Assembly (NCBI RefSeq): GCF_029633965.1
Contig: NZ_CP091277.1
Coordinates: 682,001-746,000, forward strand
Direction: 5' to 3'
DNA from: Methanogenium sp. S4BF
GTDB lineage: Archaea > Halobacteriota > Methanomicrobia > Methanomicrobiales > Methanomicrobiaceae
DNA length: 64,000 bases
Part shown: positions 1-52,201 of the stretch, piece after piece
Position numbering within the stretch: position 1 is the stretch's first letter
Layout of the letters: each line of letters begins with the position of its first letter
Program-made: the position numbers and the translations under genes
The notes under the pieces: model-generated
The model's input: the letters and a program-made list of their open reading frames with translations, nothing else
The model's database searches: none
What the model was told of the DNA's origin: nothing

Positions 1-1602
1 GACACCGCGAGTTGAATGCAGCATCTCTTTGGCACCCATGACTGCCCTGCCGGTTGCCTGCGCACGGGGGCCGGTGACAAATACCTCATCCCCTTCCCGT
101 ATTGCAGGGTCTGCATCCAGTACACCGGGAGCAAGTACATCGCCCTGCGGGATGAAGTCATCAATGTGAACCTGATACCGGTCACCAATCAGACCCCAGC
201 CTTCCATTGTGGGGCGCATCAGCCCGGTGGATTCATCAATACTGAATAGCTGGGTACGTCCGCTCATCACTTTCCGGCGGCCCCTGCGGCCCTTCAGCAT
301 CAGACGGCTGGTATCCACATCTGTATCAAACTGCCAGGAGAGTGTTCCCCGGATAACATCAGATCCCATCTTGCGGTTCCCTTTCAGGCTTTCCTCGAGC
401 CGCCTGAGGGATTCCGGAGATGTCGTGCGGTCGCCGACGCAGGTGGATTCAATCTCCATACCAACACGGTTCGCCGCATCTTCTGCAAGGATACGCGTCT
501 TTTCATCAAGATGCGCGATGATTCTTCCGAACTGATGTTTTTCAAAGTAGCGTGCAAGAGATGACGAGATAAATTCCCGCTCCTCACGGTCCCAGTAGCC
601 GGTGACCGGAATGTCATAATGGCCTGCCGGATAAATGGCCTCCAGCTCCCGTGGCACAATCCCCATAGGGGAGGTCAGAATCAGTTCATGTGCCCTGTTC
701 TGGATGGCAAACGTGAATTTGCGGTGGCTCTGTGAGAGGGAATATGGTTTGCGCGCAGAGCAGGGAAGAAGCACCACGGTGTCTGTCCGGGTCGGGATGA
801 ACCGGTCAATCACCCGGTTGACAAACCGCGTGACCTCTGTTCGCTTCAGGGAGTCTGCGCTGTTTGCCGAGAATGGTGTGGTCCGTACAATCGGTATGAC
901 CGGTTCAGAGTATGCGGATGCGGCATCGAGGAGGCGCATAACAGCCACCTGCCAGGCAGCATTCCGAACCCGTTTCTCTATAAATTCGCGGAACACGTGT
1001 GAGCGGATGAACCAGCGTGCGGATGCAATCTCTGTATCGAGTGCAGTCCGGTTATGCAGTTTTAGATCGCCATTCCTGCAGCCATCACATGAACAGATAC
1101 CGGAATCACGCACCTCATCATACGAAAACTCACCGTCCGGCGTGCAGAACATTCCCCGTACCGTCATCAGGTCAACTGCCCGGTAATCAAAGAGATCAAA
1201 TCCACAGTAGATGAGGACGGACACATTCGACGGCAGCGCACTTGCCGGTGCATACCAGGCAGTGTCCATCGGGAACCGTTCTTTCAGGTCAATTATAAGA
1301 TCCGTAAACCGGCGTGGGTTTTCAAAGAGGATGTGGCATCCCGGAACGATTACCGCTGACTCCTCTGAGCCGTCCGGCATCTCCCCGACGAATGCATTCA
1401 GGACACCTTCATACTGGACTGGCTTTGGCCACCGGATTTTATCCGGAAATTCAGGAGGGGTATTTGCGAACGGATGGTTGTATAAATCGGGAAACATCTC
1501 CTGTGGATTGATGACAGCAGGTGTCGCCACACCTGTGTCTCCGGAACGGTATTTTCCCGTCCGGCCCGGACCGTCACGAATGATACGCTCAAATAAACTC
1601 AT
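1..1602 (-). CDS. arcS: Archaeosine synthase ArcS (TgtA2), C-terminus cut by window edge
   Basis: This enzyme converts preQ0 already inserted at position 15 of archaeal tRNA towards archaeosine (family knowledge). Translating the minus strand from the ATG at 1602 gives 534 codons with no stop to the window edge. The protein starts [19 protein letters not shown] cysteine cluster, GICSCDGC, lies near residue 167. The ArcS signature [14 protein letters not shown] lies near residues 278-292. The last ~75 residues look like a PUA RNA-binding domain, so only about 10-20 residues are probably missing. The start overlaps the 3' end of tgtA by 14 nt, so the two genes act in sequence and are translationally coupled. 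The family's TGT-like N-terminal fold lacks the catalytic Asp of true TGT, as known for this paralogue. Confidence 0.9.
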
Positions 1603-3037
1603 AGCATTTCTCCATATTCTGCAGTGCATCTGCGATGACCGGTTTCCATCGCACACCTGCATTGATGGTGACCGGAATGCCGGGGTTTGCATGAATAAGT
1701 TCGATGATTCCCCTGCACCCGCTTCTGACCATATCTTCATCCCATTCCGGAATCTCGCTCTGACCTATCGGGAATGTTTCACTCAGTTCAGGTGGATACG
1801 GACCGAAAGGGGGCTTAAAGCGGAATGCTGTTGCACCGGCAGGGCCTTCCTCATCATTCAGGCTGATATGGATGGCTTCTCCGACGGAAAACCGGGGAAT
1901 CATCCCGTGATATCGTATCACTTCAGTCCGGCTGCAGGATTCGCTTCCCCGATAGAAAAACCGGCGTTTTGTCACCGAATCCCGTGTCAGGAGTTCTTCT
2001 GAATATTTCAGCAGTTCCCGGTAGCCGTCAAGCAGGCGGGGATGGTTTCTGCAGCGTTCGTCCACGAGCTCCCAGAGAGTGCCATCCTGAATGCACTGCC
2101 GGATGCGGGCAATCTCTGCAAGGCTCACGAGGAGGTTATGTTTGGCAAGCAGTTTCTCTTTATCCGGCGATGCCTGCAGTTCACGTGCCGTATGGGCGCG
2201 GCAGACTTCACAGGCACAGGGGAGCTCACTGAGTTCAGCAAGTTTAAAACTCCCGGATGGTGTCATATATCGGCCTTCGCGGGCATAGAGTGCATATGCG
2301 GCAGAATCAAAGACATCACATCCCATCGCTGCTGCAAGGGCAAACATCGACGGATGACCTGCCCCGAAGAGGTGGATGCATGAGCCGGGGGAGAGAGTCT
2401 GTTTTGCCGCCATCACAACCGTTACCAGATCGCGGTAGCGATATGACTCCATGAGTGGCACCACAGCACCAATAGGACAGAATATGGCTCCGGTTTCACG
2501 GACTTCCTCTCCTGCCCTCCTCCGGAGATCGGGATGGATGCCTCCCTGCACCGGGGCTGCGAGATGACCATCATCAATGATCTCCATCGCTTCGCGAATC
2601 CGCTGCATGGTCACAGCAAGTTCCTCAGCTGCTCCTTCATGGTCCCGGTCAGGAGGGGTAGCAAGGTCCATGGGAACAATTATTTCACTCCCAATCCGGC
2701 GCTGAAACTGTACGGTATCAGTATTTGAAAATGCCACATCTCCGTATACAGACTGCTGAAATGCACCGGAATCCGTCATGATGATCCCCTGAAACCCGAG
2801 AACGGAATGAAGACCTTCATTGATTGCCCGTTCCCGGTACTCCTCACTTTTACTGAAGATGTATGCATTGGTGATCAGCGCTTCAACGCCCATCTTCTGC
2901 ATCTCCTCAGCAGGGATTAACTGGATGTGGGGGTTTATTACCGGAAGAAGAAGGGGTGTTTTTGCGGTTTTATCCCCGACCCGGAGTTTCCCCGTCCTCG
3001 CCCATATGTCTTTATGCTGGCTCTCAAAGGTGATCAC
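1589..3037 (-). CDS. tgtA: Archaeal tRNA-guanine(15) transglycosylase (arcTGT)
   Basis: The enzyme exchanges guanine-15 in the D-loop of tRNA for preQ0, the first tRNA-level step to archaeosine. The protein has 482 residues. The N-terminal TIM-barrel carries the nucleophile-region motif TDSGAFQQ (near residue 88) and the substrate-site run [12 protein letters not shown] zinc site is formed by CACEVC followed by RAH (near residues 275-284). The last ~120 residues match the C-terminal accessory region of arcTGT. This copy has no clear PUA domain, which is carried instead by the downstream ArcS. The start is GTG at 3037, overlapping the AMMECR1 stop as GTGA. It is the middle gene of the AMMECR1-tgtA-arcS operon. 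Confidence 0.93.
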
Positions 3038-45594: not shown

Positions 45595-46653
45595 ATGGCA
45601 TCTACCAAAAAAGAAGAGGATACACGTACGCTGGAAGACTTACGGGGACAGGAGTTAGGCATCCCGACAACGTTGCCACCCTTTAATCCCGATACCGATG
45701 TCCCGGACGCTCCGGATTATACCAATCCCGACAGCTGGCTCACCATGCCCGCATATTTCAGCACGGATGAGCAGCCAGTCGATGTGTTCTGGGTGTATCC
45801 CACCATTCTCTCTGATAATTCGACGTATCTGATGGATATGAATGATCCGGTATTACGGGAGAAGGCACACTGGACGCTGGTGGAGCAGGCCAGCATATTT
45901 GACGGACAGGCAAATATTTACGCACCGTTTTACCGGCAGAACAATGTGAAAATCAATCCTTTGATGCTCACCCGTGCGAAATCCATCTTTGTTCTGGGGC
46001 AGCAGGACCTCATTACTGCATTTGCTTATTTCCTGGAACATTTCAATAAGGGAGAACGGCCCATTATCCTCGCGGCCCACAGTCAGGGGTCGGTCAGGGT
46101 CGTTGAACTGTCAAAGGCAGGAGAACTCCTGACCGGTGATGCCGAATCACTGAAGAGACTGGTGGCGGCGTATGTTATTGGGTATTCGATCACGCAGTCG
46201 GATCTGGATTTAAACCCGTTTATGAGGATCAGTGAACATGCGACTGACACGGGTTGTTTCATCACCTACAATACGATATCCGATGAAGAAGGCAAAGAGA
46301 AGGAGGGGCCGACAATCATTCCGGGAACGTTTGTGGTAAATCCTCTGACCTGGAAGACCGATACCACGTTTGCACCTGCTTCCCTGAATCGTGAAGCAGT
46401 GTTCTTCAAACATGAGCATCCCGAAAGTCCGGACAGGTATCCGAACTTTGCAGCAGCCCAGGTCGTAAACAACGCGTTGGTGATAACAGACATATCCAAT
46501 CCGGAGGAATTACCGGCGACCAGCGTCACCTTCCCTGAGGGTGTCTACCACATGTATGATTATGCAGTCTTTTACGAGAACCTCAGAACGAATGTCGGCG
46601 ATCGTATTCAGGCATATCTAAATCGATATGAGCGGTCAGCACAGTCATCTTGA
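45595..46653 (+). CDS. DUF3089-like alpha/beta hydrolase
   Basis: This is a predicted serine hydrolase of a mostly bacterial family, 352 residues. Visible blocks are VDVFWVYPTIL (near residue 63), ANIYAPFYRQNN (~102) and the nucleophile elbow AAHSQGS (~160). IIPGTFVVNPLTWKTD and, near the C-terminus, GVYHMYDYAVFYENLR follow, with an Asp and His placed to complete a triad. There is no signal peptide from ATG 45595, although many relatives are exported. It lies between two gene-poor stretches and is followed by a bacterial-style palindromic repeat, which suggests lateral transfer. Confidence 0.84.
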   Translation: MASTKKEEDTRTLEDLRGQELGIPTTLPPFNPDTDVPDAPDYTNPDSWLTMPAYFSTDEQPVDVFWVYPTILSDNSTYLMDMNDPVLREKAHWTLVEQASIFDGQANIYAPFYRQNNVKINPLMLTRAKSIFVLGQQDLITAFAYFLEHFNKGERPIILAAHSQGSVRVVELSKAGELLTGDAESLKRLVAAYVIGYSITQSDLDLNPFMRISEHATDTGCFITYNTISDEEGKEKEGPTIIPGTFVVNPLTWKTDTTFAPASLNREAVFFKHEHPESPDRYPNFAAAQVVNNALVITDISNPEELPATSVTFPEGVYHMYDYAVFYENLRTNVGDRIQAYLNRYERSAQSS

Positions 46654-46965: not shown

Positions 46966-48822
46966 TCAGAGAAACGAGACTGCCAGCAGATTAACGACGG
47001 TTCCAATACCCATGCCGAGGGTCAGGGTGTATGCTGAGACCATGAGCGCTGTCTTCCATCCCATCTCCCGGTAGAGAACCGCAATTGTTGAGATGCAGGG
47101 CACAAAGAGCACACTGACAACGGCAAATACATAGAGCTGAAGGCCGGTCATCACCGAACCCAGATCTGCGGTGCCTGCAAGGATAGCGAGAGTTTCAAAC
47201 GCCATTTCTTTTCTCAGAATACCAAATATCAGTGCAGTAGAGGCATAAGGCGGAAGGCCGAGAACAGTCTCCATAAACGGTGCAAAGATATCCTGAAATG
47301 CCTGGATGATTCCTGCATACTGGAGCACACCTAAAAAGACGCTGCTGACCAGAAGCAGGGGCATGGCAATGAAGAGGAACTCCTTCATATGGAGCCATGC
47401 CCGTTTCAATGTCTGCACCGGCTGCGGTTTTCTCAGGGGAGCCATCTCAAGGATCATCCCGAACTGTTCACCGGGAGTAATCTTTGTCAGCACAAACCCG
47501 GTAAGGATGATCAGAATAAACACAATCAGGTAGATGGAGAAGGCCCACGCAACACCGACAAACACAGCAACAATACCGGCAATAATCACTGTTCGTGCCG
47601 AACAGGGCACCATCGTGATCAGAAATGACGCAATTATCCGCTCCCGTTTAGATAACTGGCGTATGCTCATAATGGCAGGCACATTGCAGCCCAGCCCCAG
47701 CACCATGGGAATCAGCGCCTGCCCGTGCATGCCGACATGGTGCATTGCCCGGTCTGCGAGAAATGCCGCCCGTGTCATATACCCGGAGTCCTCGAGAATC
47801 GAGATGAGGATATAGAAAACAAAGACAAAGGGGAATGCAATCCCAAGTCCTGCCTGCACCGCAAGAATGAGTGAGAAGAGAATCTGCTCCCAGAACGGCG
47901 ATAATCCGGCACTCATGAGGGGTGCAATCAGATAGATATCGAACAGTTCGACAATTCTTTCTTCGAGAAACGAGCCGACAAAAAATACTGTGAGCAGGGT
48001 TGAGAAGAGCAGGAACAGGAGTATCGGAATGCCCGGAAATGACCGTGTCAACAGGCTGTCCAGATCGGGTTTTTTCTTCTGATCTTTAAATACCGTAATT
48101 TCATCCGCAATTTTTGCGGCGGCATTGTGCCGGTTGGTTGCAATGATCTGGTGCACGGACATCTGGTGCTCGTCTTCAATCTCTCCGGCAAGGGTGGATG
48201 CCGAATCAAGCAGATCGGCATCTGCTCCCAGATTCTGAAGGGCATCAAGGGCCTCCCTCCGGGAACATCCGTGGATCTTGACAAGGCTTCGGATGGCAGC
48301 CTCAATGTGCTGGCCATAGGGAACCTCGTAGCTCATTTTTCGTGCTTCTGAGAGTGCACAGGGGATGATGTCTCCGACATTTCGTCCTTCTGATGCAGCT
48401 GCGGCAATGACTGTGCATCCGAGCATATCAGAGAGCCGGGCGAAATCAATCTCGACACCGGCCTTTTCGGATTCATCAACCATGTTGATGACGACAACAC
48501 CGGACAGCTGATACTCCGCAATCTGCAACAGCAGGTAAAGGTTGCGTTCAAGATTTGATGCGTTGAGGACCGGGACGATTACATCAATATTTTCTTCCTG
48601 CAGATAGCGGCGGACACTGATTTCCTCATCGGATGTCCCGTCAAGGGAATAGATGCCGGGAAAATCAACGAGTTCAACAATCTCCCGCTGATAACAGACA
48701 CCGCCGGATAAAATATCGATGGTGGTGCCGGGAAAATTACTGATCTCAACACCGATCCCTGTCAGCTGGGTAAAGATCAACGATTTGCCGACATTGGGGT
48801 TTCCAATGAGTGCGACTTTCAT
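46966..48822 (-). CDS. feoB: Ferrous iron transporter FeoB
   Basis: This is the membrane Fe(II) uptake protein with a cytoplasmic G domain. The 618 residues begin with G1 GNPNVGKS, G3 DFPGIYSL and a G4-like NMVDESEKAG (canonical NxxD), then a helical GDI-like domain. The permease part begins near residue 275. It has the Gate motifs GLGCNVPAIMSIRQL and PCSARTVIIAGIVAVF, each with the conserved Cys or Pro residues. It is shorter than E. coli FeoB, as is usual in archaea. The ATG overlaps the DtxR-FeoA stop by 4 nt. Confidence 0.96.
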   Translation of the reverse strand: MKVALIGNPNVGKSLIFTQLTGIGVEISNFPGTTIDILSGGVCYQREIVELVDFPGIYSLDGTSDEEISVRRYLQEENIDVIVPVLNASNLERNLYLLLQIAEYQLSGVVVINMVDESEKAGVEIDFARLSDMLGCTVIAAAASEGRNVGDIIPCALSEARKMSYEVPYGQHIEAAIRSLVKIHGCSRREALDALQNLGADADLLDSASTLAGEIEDEHQMSVHQIIATNRHNAAAKIADEITVFKDQKKKPDLDSLLTRSFPGIPILLFLLFSTLLTVFFVGSFLEERIVELFDIYLIAPLMSAGLSPFWEQILFSLILAVQAGLGIAFPFVFVFYILISILEDSGYMTRAAFLADRAMHHVGMHGQALIPMVLGLGCNVPAIMSIRQLSKRERIIASFLITMVPCSARTVIIAGIVAVFVGVAWAFSIYLIVFILIILTGFVLTKITPGEQFGMILEMAPLRKPQPVQTLKRAWLHMKEFLFIAMPLLLVSSVFLGVLQYAGIIQAFQDIFAPFMETVLGLPPYASTALIFGILRKEMAFETLAILAGTADLGSVMTGLQLYVFAVVSVLFVPCISTIAVLYREMGWKTALMVSAYTLTLGMGIGTVVNLLAVSFL

Positions 48823-49457
48823 TCGATAGTCTCCACAAGTACAGATGCTGCAATTTCCGGGCTGATTGCAATATCACTTCCTTTGATGGTGACGACAAGT
48901 GATCCGTTTGAGAGTTTTCTCTGGATGGTGATCTCCTCGCCGGGTATAACACCAATATCATTGAGGCGTCCCATCCGGCGGGGTCCCCTGATGACGGCTA
49001 CACGGACGGTTTCTTTTTCATTATGGAGAGAGAGGGGTTTCAGCTCACACGGCTGGGCACAGACATGGTGACGCTCCTGTCTGCACCGCCTCGGGCGTGA
49101 AAGATATTGATTGAGCCGGCTGATGGTGTCATCGGATGCTTCGTGCTCCATGCGGCAGGCCTGCTGTGAGGCAGTGTCCTGATCCATCCCCAGCATCTCC
49201 GTAAAGAAACATTCGAGTATTTTATGTTTTTTCAGGACACATTCAGCCGTTTTCTGTCCCTTTTCTGTCAACCTGACGGTGCTGCCGGGGCCAAGGATAA
49301 TATCCCCGGTTTCTTCGAGCTGGTTCAGGTCATTTCGAACCGTATCCCGGCTCCGGTCAAATTTCTGGGAGAGAAACTGAAGTGTATCTTCTTCGAGAGT
49401 ATCAATCCGGTTTTCGAGGATCCATTCCAGATAATCCTCGTGAACTGCAGTGTGCAT
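48819..49457 (-). CDS. DtxR-type regulator fused to a FeoA domain
   Basis: This 212-residue protein joins a metal-responsive repressor to the FeoA partner of FeoB. The N-terminal part (residues ~5-65) is a winged helix (YLEWILENRIDTLEEDTLQF; SRDTVRNDLNQLEETGDIIL). Residues ~70-115 form the DtxR dimerisation/metal-binding helices (HKILECFFTEMLGMD, then CRMEHEASDDTISRL). A Cys/His-rich bridge CRQERHHVCAQPCE follows, then an SH3-like FeoA domain (RRMGRLNDIGVIPGEEITIQ). It probably senses Fe or Mn and controls its own operon with feoB. Confidence 0.93.
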   Translation of the reverse strand: MHTAVHEDYLEWILENRIDTLEEDTLQFLSQKFDRSRDTVRNDLNQLEETGDIILGPGSTVRLTEKGQKTAECVLKKHKILECFFTEMLGMDQDTASQQACRMEHEASDDTISRLNQYLSRPRRCRQERHHVCAQPCELKPLSLHNEKETVRVAVIRGPRRMGRLNDIGVIPGEEITIQRKLSNGSLVVTIKGSDIAISPEIAASVLVETIE

Positions 49458-49476
49458 ATATCGAAATACATTATGC
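49454..49476. promoter_or_regulatory. Divergent start region, feo operon / ArcS-like gene
   Basis: Only 15 bp separate the DtxR-FeoA ATG (49457) and the first ATG of the divergent gene (49473). GCATA at 49454-49458 and TATGC at 49472-49476 form an inverted repeat with a 13-bp spacer that spans both start codons. It could be an operator for the DtxR-type protein, but this is weak evidence. Each gene's core promoter must lie inside the other's coding region or leader. Confidence 0.3.
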
Positions 49477-50162
49477 TGTCCGTGGCTAATGATTATGTCG
49501 GCCTTACCAAGGTGAGAGATATTTCAGGAAAAAACGCATCTTCCCACTCTAATAATTCCAGACAGATTCTGGATCCCCCGTTTTACCTCAACCAGTTTGA
49601 GGAGGCATTTCGCTATATTATCGATGAATATCAGATTCCCCGGCATGACATCGGGGTATTTATTCCCTGTGCGGTCAGAAAACCCTACAGCACGTCGCCA
49701 AGCCACCGCCTGTTCCATAAAATATTTGATTCCGTGTATGCCACCGGCACGTCATATCATGTCGTGATCTTCGGCACCTGCGGGACCGTACCGGCCGAAC
49801 TGGAATGCATGTACCCGTACGCACAATACCATTACATGCTGGGCAAATGCACGAACGAGAGAATTCGAGACGATTTTCTAAAGATAGAGACCTATCGCCT
49901 GACAGAATTTCTGGAGAAAACGGCCGATATATACGAGGTGCGGATTGCATACTGCATTGGTGTGTTCCGGGAGGCAATGGTCCGGGCGGCCGCAAAGACG
50001 AATACCGACATTCTGATCTATCCCACCGATCCTATGATCAAGAAGATGTATGCCGACGACTGCCCGTTTCCCGAGGGCAGTCTCTCCATGCAGGAATATA
50101 TCGATGAGTTCACGGCCGGTCTTCTGAGGGCGAAGACACTGGTCGACATATCAGAGAAATAG
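49473..50162 (+). CDS. Stand-alone ArcS-core-like protein (DUF5591 type)
   Basis: This 229-residue protein carries the ArcS signature without the rest of ArcS. The motif IPCAVRKPYSTSPSH lies near residues 64-78, compared with [15 protein letters not shown] in the window's own ArcS. It continues with FGTCGTVPAELECMYPYAQY where ArcS has [17 protein letters not shown], and shares the later helix region. There are no TGT-like and PUA domains. ATG 49473 is the first start; GTG 49482 would be leaderless-compatible. The substrate is unknown; a tRNA-type or nucleobase-type amidotransfer reaction is inference from the motif. It is divergent from the iron uptake operon. Confidence 0.8.
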   Translation: MLSVANDYVGLTKVRDISGKNASSHSNNSRQILDPPFYLNQFEEAFRYIIDEYQIPRHDIGVFIPCAVRKPYSTSPSHRLFHKIFDSVYATGTSYHVVIFGTCGTVPAELECMYPYAQYHYMLGKCTNERIRDDFLKIETYRLTEFLEKTADIYEVRIAYCIGVFREAMVRAAAKTNTDILIYPTDPMIKKMYADDCPFPEGSLSMQEYIDEFTAGLLRAKTLVDISEK

Positions 50163-50266: not shown

Positions 50267-52201
50267 TCACCCTTTCTGCACTTCCGCATTCAGTTTTTTC
50301 AGCTTATCCCGCAGCACAATGGCCCGTTCAAAATCAAGCCGTTCTGCCGCCTCCTGCATCTCGGTTTCTACCTGAATAATGAGATTGGGCAGTTCATACC
50401 GTGGAATATGTTTGGTATCCTGAATGTCCACCTCTTTCTCCCGGATGGGTTTGTGAATGGTGACCGGGCTGATGCCATGCACCCGGTTATACTCCATCTG
50501 CATCGCACGCCTCCTGCCGGTCTCTTCAACGGCGGTTTTTATCGAATCGGTGATTTTGTCGGCATAGAGGACGACATGGGAGTGGTCATTTCGTGCCGCC
50601 CGCCCGATGGTCTGGATGAGGCTTCGGGCATCCCTGAGAAAGCCTTCCTTATCCGCATCCAGAATGCCGATGAAACTCACTTCCGGAATATCAAGCCCTT
50701 CCCTGAGGAGATTAATGCCGACGAGCACATCAAAGATTCCCAGGCGGAGTTCACGGAGGATCTCGGTTCGTTCGATGGCATTTATCTCTGAATGGAGATA
50801 GCGGGTCTTTATTCCCTTTTCTGCGAGGTATTCCGAGAGTTCTTCTGCCAGTTTTTTGGTCAGGGTCGTTATGAGTACCCGGTCCCCTGCCGCGATGGTC
50901 TTCTGAATTTCTTCGCATACGTCAGGAATCTGGGTTTTGAGCGGCCGGATACTGACTTCAGGATCAACCAGCCCGGTCGGACGGATGATCTGTTCAATGA
51001 TCGCTGAGGAATGCTCTTTTTCATAGGGGCCGGGGGTCGCGGATACGAATATCGCCGTCCTCATGTAGTCTTCAAATTCAGGGAATTTCAGCGGGCGGTT
51101 GTCAAAGGCGGACGGGAGCCGGAATCCATACTCAACAAGGGATTTCTTCCGCGAAAAGTCGCCGTTGTACATCCCCCGCACCTGCGGGAGCGTCTGGTGA
51201 CTCTCATCTATTACCATCAGAAAGTCATCGGGGAAATAATCCAGCAGGCAGAATGGTTTCTCTCCCTTTTGCCGATGATCAAAGAACCGGGAATAGTTTT
51301 CAATCCCTTTGCAGTAGCCGGTCTCCTCAATCATCTCGATGTCATAGAGCGTCCGCTGGCGGAGCCGATGTGCTTCAATAAGGCCCAGTGTAGGAAGAGT
51401 CGCTTCCAGCTCTTTCTGTATCTCGATTATTGCCCCGGCCTTCTCCTCTTCCGGTATCACATAATGGCGGGCGGGGTAGATGAAAAAATATGGGAGCACC
51501 TGCTTCTGCGTATGAGTGATTTTGTCAATCTCGGTAATTCTCTCAATTTCATCGCCAAAAAACTCAATCCTGATGATGTCCGGGCCATATCCGGGGATCA
51601 GATCAATGGTGTCCCCCTTCACCCGGAACCGCCCCGGCTGGAGTTCAATATCATTGCGTTCATACTGGATCTCAATCAGGCGGGAGAGGATGTCATTGCG
51701 TTTCACCCGTTCTCCCTGCGCCACCTCAAATCCAAGCCCTTCAAAATTCTCCGGGTTTCCCAGACCGTAGATGGCGGAGACAGATGCGATGACAATAACA
51801 TCATCACGTGAGAGTAGAGATGCGGTCGCCGCAAGACGCATCTGCTCAATCTTTGGGTTGATTGCGGCGTCCTTTTCGATATAGATGTCTCTTTGGGGAA
51901 TGTAGGACTCCGGCTGATAGTAATCATAATAGGAGACGAAATATTCGACCCGGTTCTCCGGGAAAAAGTCCCTGAATTCGTTATACAACTGTGCCGCGAG
52001 TGTTTTATTGTGGGCAAGGACAAGGGTCGGCTTCTGCACTGCGGCAATCACATTTGCAATGGTAAATGTCTTCCCCGAACCGGTTACGCCCATTAACGTC
52101 TGAAACCGGTTTTTATGACCAATGCTCTCTACAAGGGATTTGATCGCATCAGGTTGTGAGCCCTGGGGAGAAAAGTCAGATTTCAGATTAAACCTGGTCA
52201 T
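50267..52201 (-). CDS. uvrB: Excinuclease ABC subunit UvrB
   Basis: UvrB is the damage-verifying helicase-like subunit of bacterial-type nucleotide excision repair. The 644 residues have Walker A MGVTGSGKT, the beta-hairpin region YDYYQPESYIPQRD, DEXX-type VIDESHQTLPQ, motif VI (LIQTIGRAARN) and the C-terminal UvrC-binding coiled coil (ETEMQEAAERLDFERAIVLR). It overlaps uvrC by 14 nt and is the last gene of the operon. Confidence 0.97.
   Translation of the reverse strand: MTRFNLKSDFSPQGSQPDAIKSLVESIGHKNRFQTLMGVTGSGKTFTIANVIAAVQKPTLVLAHNKTLAAQLYNEFRDFFPENRVEYFVSYYDYYQPESYIPQRDIYIEKDAAINPKIEQMRLAATASLLSRDDVIVIASVSAIYGLGNPENFEGLGFEVAQGERVKRNDILSRLIEIQYERNDIELQPGRFRVKGDTIDLIPGYGPDIIRIEFFGDEIERITEIDKITHTQKQVLPYFFIYPARHYVIPEEEKAGAIIEIQKELEATLPTLGLIEAHRLRQRTLYDIEMIEETGYCKGIENYSRFFDHRQKGEKPFCLLDYFPDDFLMVIDESHQTLPQVRGMYNGDFSRKKSLVEYGFRLPSAFDNRPLKFPEFEDYMRTAIFVSATPGPYEKEHSSAIIEQIIRPTGLVDPEVSIRPLKTQIPDVCEEIQKTIAAGDRVLITTLTKKLAEELSEYLAEKGIKTRYLHSEINAIERTEILRELRLGIFDVLVGINLLREGLDIPEVSFIGILDADKEGFLRDARSLIQTIGRAARNDHSHVVLYADKITDSIKTAVEETGRRRAMQMEYNRVHGISPVTIHKPIREKEVDIQDTKHIPRYELPNLIIQVETEMQEAAERLDFERAIVLRDKLKKLNAEVQKG

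Follow-up and report, generated by a model that had tools for sequence, protein, structure and literature searches.

A stand-alone ArcS-type core protein (DUF5591) of methanogens with two additional conserved cysteines, a possible sulfur-transfer or desulfuration enzyme

Genomic context and start of the gene

The window, i.e., the whole stretch of DNA analysed here, covers 64 kb (positions 682001-746000) of a 2.51-Mb single-contig Methanogenium genome. The gene under study encodes a stand-alone DUF5591 protein and lies between ferrous iron uptake genes and a UvrB-like reading frame; full-length archaeosine synthase (ArcS) is encoded in the same window. The following features are referred to throughout (positions in the window):

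49473..50162, + strand: ORF of the stand-alone DUF5591 protein in its longest reading (229 aa; contains FIPCAVRKPYSTSPSH)
49510..49515, + strand: Shine-Dalgarno-like AGGTGA, 5-6 nt before an in-frame ATT
49521..50162, + strand: probable translated part, with ATT at 49521 (codon 17) as putative start
49668..49670, + strand: C66 of PCxxxKPYxxSPSH
49779..49781, + strand: C103 of FGTCGxVPxEL
49953..49955, + strand: C161 of AYCxGxFR
48819..49457, - strand: DtxR-FeoA fusion (Fe_dep_repr_C and FeoA domains), the divergent neighbour
46966..48822, - strand: FeoB (TIGR00437, 435.7 bits)
50267-52201: UvrB-like ORF (named by sequence), on the far side of the stand-alone gene
1..1602, - strand: full-length ArcS, for comparison (NF040592, 568 bits; TGT-like, DUF5591, and PUA domains)
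1589..3037, - strand: TgtA, just upstream of ArcS (TIGR00432, 560 bits)

In addition, a DUF3089 protein (PF11288, E 1.4e-50) is encoded at 45595-46653, convergent with feoB.

Comparison with seven relatives gave pN/pS values of 0.14-0.27 for the stand-alone ORF, which indicates purifying selection. Its 5' end was compared among five Methanogenium sequences, in which the AGGTGA motif is conserved by inspection. In one of them (L036), a TAG interrupts the frame immediately ahead of codon 14; in another (L034), the part before codon 17 contains a 1-nt indel and stops in frame. When read from the ATT at 49521, all five are in frame. This pattern suggests that translation probably leaves out the first 16 codons and begins at a non-standard AUU at 49521, or at a later ATG in some relatives. 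The first-pass annotation had placed the gene 15 bp from the DtxR-FeoA/FeoB operon; the divergent arrangement and the 15 bp between the two ATGs are as described, but because codons 1-16 are probably not translated, the gap to the dtxR start is probably nearer 60 bp. An imperfect dyad (TGCATA-N13-TATGCT/A, 49452-49478), seen in Methanogenium only, spans the divergent starts of dtxR and the stand-alone gene and could be an operator or due to chance.

Gene neighbourhoods were laid out for 96 stand-alone loci. FeoB and DtxR-FeoA occurred within three genes of the stand-alone gene in six of them, all from Methanogenium or near relatives, and a Feo link was therefore rejected as a general rule. The metal-linked expression proposed from the divergent start region is accordingly not supported.

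Domain content and conserved residues

The protein encoded at 49473-50162 matched PF17884 (DUF5591) over residues 49-179 (55.9 bits, cut-off 26; E 5.6e-15), and the Pfam scan found neither a TGT nor a PUA domain in it. The NCBIfam ArcS model NF040592 covered the core only, at 53.9 bits and thus below its cut-off of 440. Exactly two DUF5591 matches were present in the whole genome, i.e., the stand-alone protein and ArcS. The initial description of an isolated ArcS-type core, accompanied in the same window by a full ArcS with TGT-like, DUF5591, and PUA domains, is upheld by these results.

The core carries the ArcS signature PCxxxKPYxxSxSH, which the alignment showed to be kept in all complete stand-alone homologues, so that the loss of active-site residues, named beforehand as an argument against the first interpretation, was not observed. 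Among 87 aligned stand-alone sequences, C66, K70, Y72, S75, and H78 were invariant wherever the positions were present (86/86). The same residues were found in all 63 ArcS-type rows, with S77 replaced by T in 11 of the 63; C66 is thus common to both groups (86/86 and 63/63).

Two further cysteines, missed in the first-pass annotation, are specific to the stand-alone line. C103 was present in 87/87 stand-alone and 0/63 ArcS-type sequences, the latter having L, I, Y, M, or P at this position. C161 was present in 86/87 stand-alone sequences, the exception being a truncated contig (L053), and in none of the aligned ArcS-type rows. The invariance or near-invariance of the three cysteines extends over several families, both in Methanomicrobiales and in Methanosarcinales with their relatives.

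An AlphaFold model of the stand-alone protein, built from only 21 sequences, was of middling confidence (mean pLDDT 71.3, pTM 0.72). In this model, strands 58-64, 95-99, and 154-160 end just ahead of C66, C103, and C161, respectively; judging from this topology, the three sulfurs would be clustered. Within the core, confidence is lowest in the loop holding C103 (residues 102-111; pLDDT <50). The sole significant fold match was 2q07, the structure of AF0587 (Foldseek E 6.7e-4; Z 10.4 over 132 residues). Other matches (DHAD, SMUG1/TDG, cutinases) had Z <8 and were too weak for use; AF0587 presumably belongs among the uracil-DNA glycosylase-like folds, with which the weak SMUG1/TDG rows agree.

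Phylogeny and distribution

The proposed comparison of DUF5591 domains alone and within ArcS was carried out as a maximum-likelihood tree of 105 cores. All 59 stand-alone sequences fell on one side of a branch with support 99/97, apart from the ArcS group (99/98) and a third group of haloarchaeal TGT fusions (99/94). This separation from ArcS points to a paralogous line rather than decayed ArcS. By its phylogeny and conservation, the stand-alone gene represents an ancient and conserved sister lineage of the ArcS core and not a stray ArcS fragment, and the encoded proteins, judged by their sequences, are an uncharacterised paralogous DUF5591 subfamily with a cysteine pattern of its own.

With the stand-alone protein as query, matches were obtained in 145 of the 150 genomes of the order, most of which had one clearly high-scoring stand-alone copy plus ArcS; two genomes (G025 and G031) had two stand-alone copies each. 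The gene is present besides full ArcS and RaSEA in almost every Methanomicrobiales genome and in many genomes of Methanosarcinales/Methanocellales. For the search of a sample of the phylum, 27 aligned stand-alone proteins served as the query, and E <1e-70 was counted as a strong match. Strong matches were found in families f1, f3, f4, f5, f6, f7, f8, f14, f26, f30, and f31, and none in f2, f9, f10, f12, f13, f17, f21-f24, and f29, where only ArcS-level scores were reached. The distribution is patchy, f2 and f22 being without the gene though mcrA-bearing.

Several candidate explanations were rejected. A link to methanogenesis does not fit, as mcrA is found in f2, f10, f12, and f22, all without the gene, and as f26 (G274, G403) has the gene yet is not among the mcrA matches. 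RaSEA scored over its cut-off in 44 of 45 genomes, with or without the stand-alone gene, and ArcS was also there; this co-occurrence indicates that neither is replaced. The one genome without RaSEA over the cut-off (G002, family f2; best E 5.9e-5) is 98% complete. The gene was also considered as a complement of TudS, but the occurrence of TudS was patchy and showed no pattern. Regarding a virus or plasmid origin, there was no phage match and no viral contig, and two plasmid matches were weak (25-26% identity).

Sulfur-transfer genes in the neighbourhood

In Methanomicrobiales, the stand-alone gene lies recurrently near genes for MoeB/ThiF and LarE, and in single cases near genes for NifS/SufS, NifU, MoaD/SAMP, CysE, ThiI, or SepCysS. 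Individual arrangements included the run moeB-samp1(moaD)-stand-alone-cysK-cysE/sufT (L087, L089; cysK by sequence only), stand-alone-larE-ferredoxin-nifS-nifU (L086; ferredoxin by sequence only), a SufS-like desulfurase divergent from stand-alone-larE-fdhD (L098, L161), larE and thiI beside the gene (L170), and SepCysS near it (L097). The YcaO gene for McrA thioamidation was found nearby together with moeB in L159 and L160, and methanogenesis marker 8 together with moeB in L096 and its kin (kin by sequence similarity and inspection). In G025/G031, it is one of the two stand-alone copies that sits in the moeB-samp1 run of L087 and L089. Other recurrent neighbours among the 96 loci were Uvr genes (~20), a TIGR01177 methyltransferase (11), TBP (6), and an Ogt-like gene (6).

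ThiF (PF00899) and LarE (TIGR00268) were then mapped in 64 genomes with 66 stand-alone copies, with expectations calculated for uniform placement. ThiF/MoeB lay within 3 kb of 10/66 copies (0.20 expected) and within 10 kb of 17/66 (0.66 expected), the copies concerned being spread over families f1, f4, f5, and f6; LarE lay within 3 kb of 5/66 (0.18 expected). The Poisson tails of 2e-14 (ThiF) and 1e-6 (LarE) are overstated, because the genomes are related and the two families were picked after the neighbours had been seen; the 66 copies correspond to far fewer independent cases, and the pattern was noticed post hoc. The gene order differs between families, which argues against a single inherited block. 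No link to sulfur genes was seen at the Methanosarcinales loci, where the neighbours are TBP, Ogt, and KaiC-like genes, and the window itself has Feo and Uvr genes flanking the stand-alone gene in place of sulfur neighbours.

Proposed function and alternatives

The two cysteines beyond the ArcS signature and the frequent sulfur-transfer neighbours make a sulfur or iron-sulfur enzyme with a nucleotide as its target likelier than a spare, iron-linked archaeosine enzyme. We tentatively favour, at somewhat below an even chance, an ArcS-like nucleobase-binding core that became an enzyme of sulfur transfer or desulfuration, with three cysteines that probably hold a [4Fe-4S] cluster. Known precedents are TtuA and TudS, in which three cysteines bind a [4Fe-4S] cluster whose open iron carries sulfur to or from the nucleobase (PMC8584467). 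By analogy, C66, C103, and C161 would hold a [4Fe-4S] cluster and leave one of its irons free, as TtuA/NcsA and TudS do, while the ArcS-type core would still bind a nucleotide or nucleobase. The free iron would carry or accept sulfide, and sulfur could be put into, or removed from, a nucleotide, an RNA base, or a nucleotide-derived cofactor, either direction being conceivable. Sulfur may be supplied by the LarE, MoeB-MoaD, or cysteine desulfurase systems often encoded nearby; LarE is a PP-loop sulfur transferase with a CxxC-C motif in most homologues (PMC8584467). TudS (PF04463) and TtuA/NcsA may be functional analogues, i.e., three-cysteine [4Fe-4S] enzymes acting on thionucleobases or tRNA (PMC8584467), whereas no sequence relation to the stand-alone protein was found, the TudS model giving no row up to E 1. 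TudS is present independently in some of the genomes that bear the stand-alone gene. That the proteins constitute an undescribed [4Fe-4S] sulfur-transfer or desulfuration family of methanogens, built on the ArcS core and acting on a nucleotide, a tRNA base, or a nucleotide cofactor, is a more doubtful proposition.

The same core would also suit a second archaeosine-type enzyme, which would add lysine or a different amine to the preQ0 nitrile in RNA, a nucleotide, or DNA, since every residue of the ArcS signature is retained and a related DUF5591 domain is fused to a TGT-like domain in haloarchaea. ArcS accepts even the preQ0 nucleoside, with higher activity on its 5'-phosphate, yet the enzyme of T. 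kodakarensis is inactive on the preQ0 base (PMC11298593), which weakens the earlier idea that the isolated core modifies a free base. Nothing in ArcS corresponds to C103 and C161, however; ArcS and RaSEA co-occur with the stand-alone gene and leave no gap to fill, and inspection by eye of the neighbours read revealed no gene of the preQ0 or queuosine type. We regard this explanation as unlikely. The cysteine pattern and the sulfur neighbours would also fit a site that binds zinc or forms a thiol or persulfide; the protein would then relay persulfide or be a zinc enzyme, and not an iron-sulfur enzyme. Three ligands at the rim of an active site with no fourth invariant cysteine beside them would, however, resemble an open-site [4Fe-4S] cluster more than structural zinc, and we give the zinc or thiol site a rather small chance.

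A non-catalytic subunit that regulates or assists TgtA, ArcS, or RaSEA would agree with the presence of RaSEA in all checked genomes bearing the stand-alone gene, and of ArcS in nearly all of them, but seems improbable: a mere scaffold would not need the whole catalytic signature that is under purifying selection, and many genomes with ArcS and RaSEA are without the stand-alone gene. We consider just as improbable a role akin to that of YaaA, an iron/peroxide-stress protein, with binding of iron or DNA. Consistent with it are the divergent orientation to DtxR-FeoA that the gene has in Methanogenium and its near relatives, the Uvr genes near about 20 loci, and a DUF5591/DUF6884 protein (L210) with an additional match to YaaA (E 1.5e-5, below the cut-off of that model); against it stand the restriction of the Feo linkage to 6/96 loci and the lack of a YaaA or DUF6884 match in the stand-alone protein (no row up to E 1 for the YaaA model PF03883).

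If a cluster is bound, archaeosine-type nucleobase recognition would be joined with iron-sulfur sulfur chemistry in one protein. Were the sulfur-enzyme reading true, this would be a new enzyme class on the ArcS fold and possibly a new thiolation or dethiolation step for tRNA or a cofactor. The protein is common in Methanomicrobiales and Methanosarcinales and known only as DUF5591, a name for which the literature search found no paper using it; its Methanosarcina carriers are genetically tractable.

Related DUF5591 proteins

ArcS (NF040592; archaeosine synthase subunit alpha) shares with the stand-alone protein the DUF5591 core including PCxxxKPYxxSxSH and GxVPxELExxYP, and differs in that the stand-alone protein is without the TGT-like and PUA domains, has C103 and C161, and falls into a separate clade. 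AF0587 (2q07) is the top match among solved structures in both sequence and fold, but extends into a part that aligns with ArcS in its C-terminal PUA region, and AF0587 is closer to ArcS (E 1.9e-43) than to the stand-alone protein (E 1.7e-4). YaaA (PF03883) and DUF6884 (PF21818) probably share a superfamily with DUF5591, although neither matches the stand-alone protein directly: a 178-aa protein (L210:950-1486) matches DUF6884, DUF5591, and, under the cut-off, YaaA, so that the folds are probably related.

A second line of stand-alone DUF5591 proteins occurs in other families of the phylum (L207-L209, L211-L213). It has PCxxKKPY but lacks the SPSH part and C103, and is characterised by the motifs PCxxKKPYxPPR, EPLALEPREFW, and DAPFFPWIEKYGYKW; stand-alone DUF5591 proteins are thus of more than one kind. 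Not every DUF5591 protein should be named archaeosine synthase.

The haloarchaeal fusions (L145-L150, 661-674 aa) have a related DUF5591 domain, but it is fused to a TGT-like domain and carries SGMYGPVP and GYxTSKTYR where the stand-alone protein has GTCG and AYCxGxFR. These fusions are candidates for 7-deazaguanine DNA modification. Both of the weak plasmid matches are located on haloarchaeal plasmids, in genes annotated as tRNA-guanine transglycosylase.
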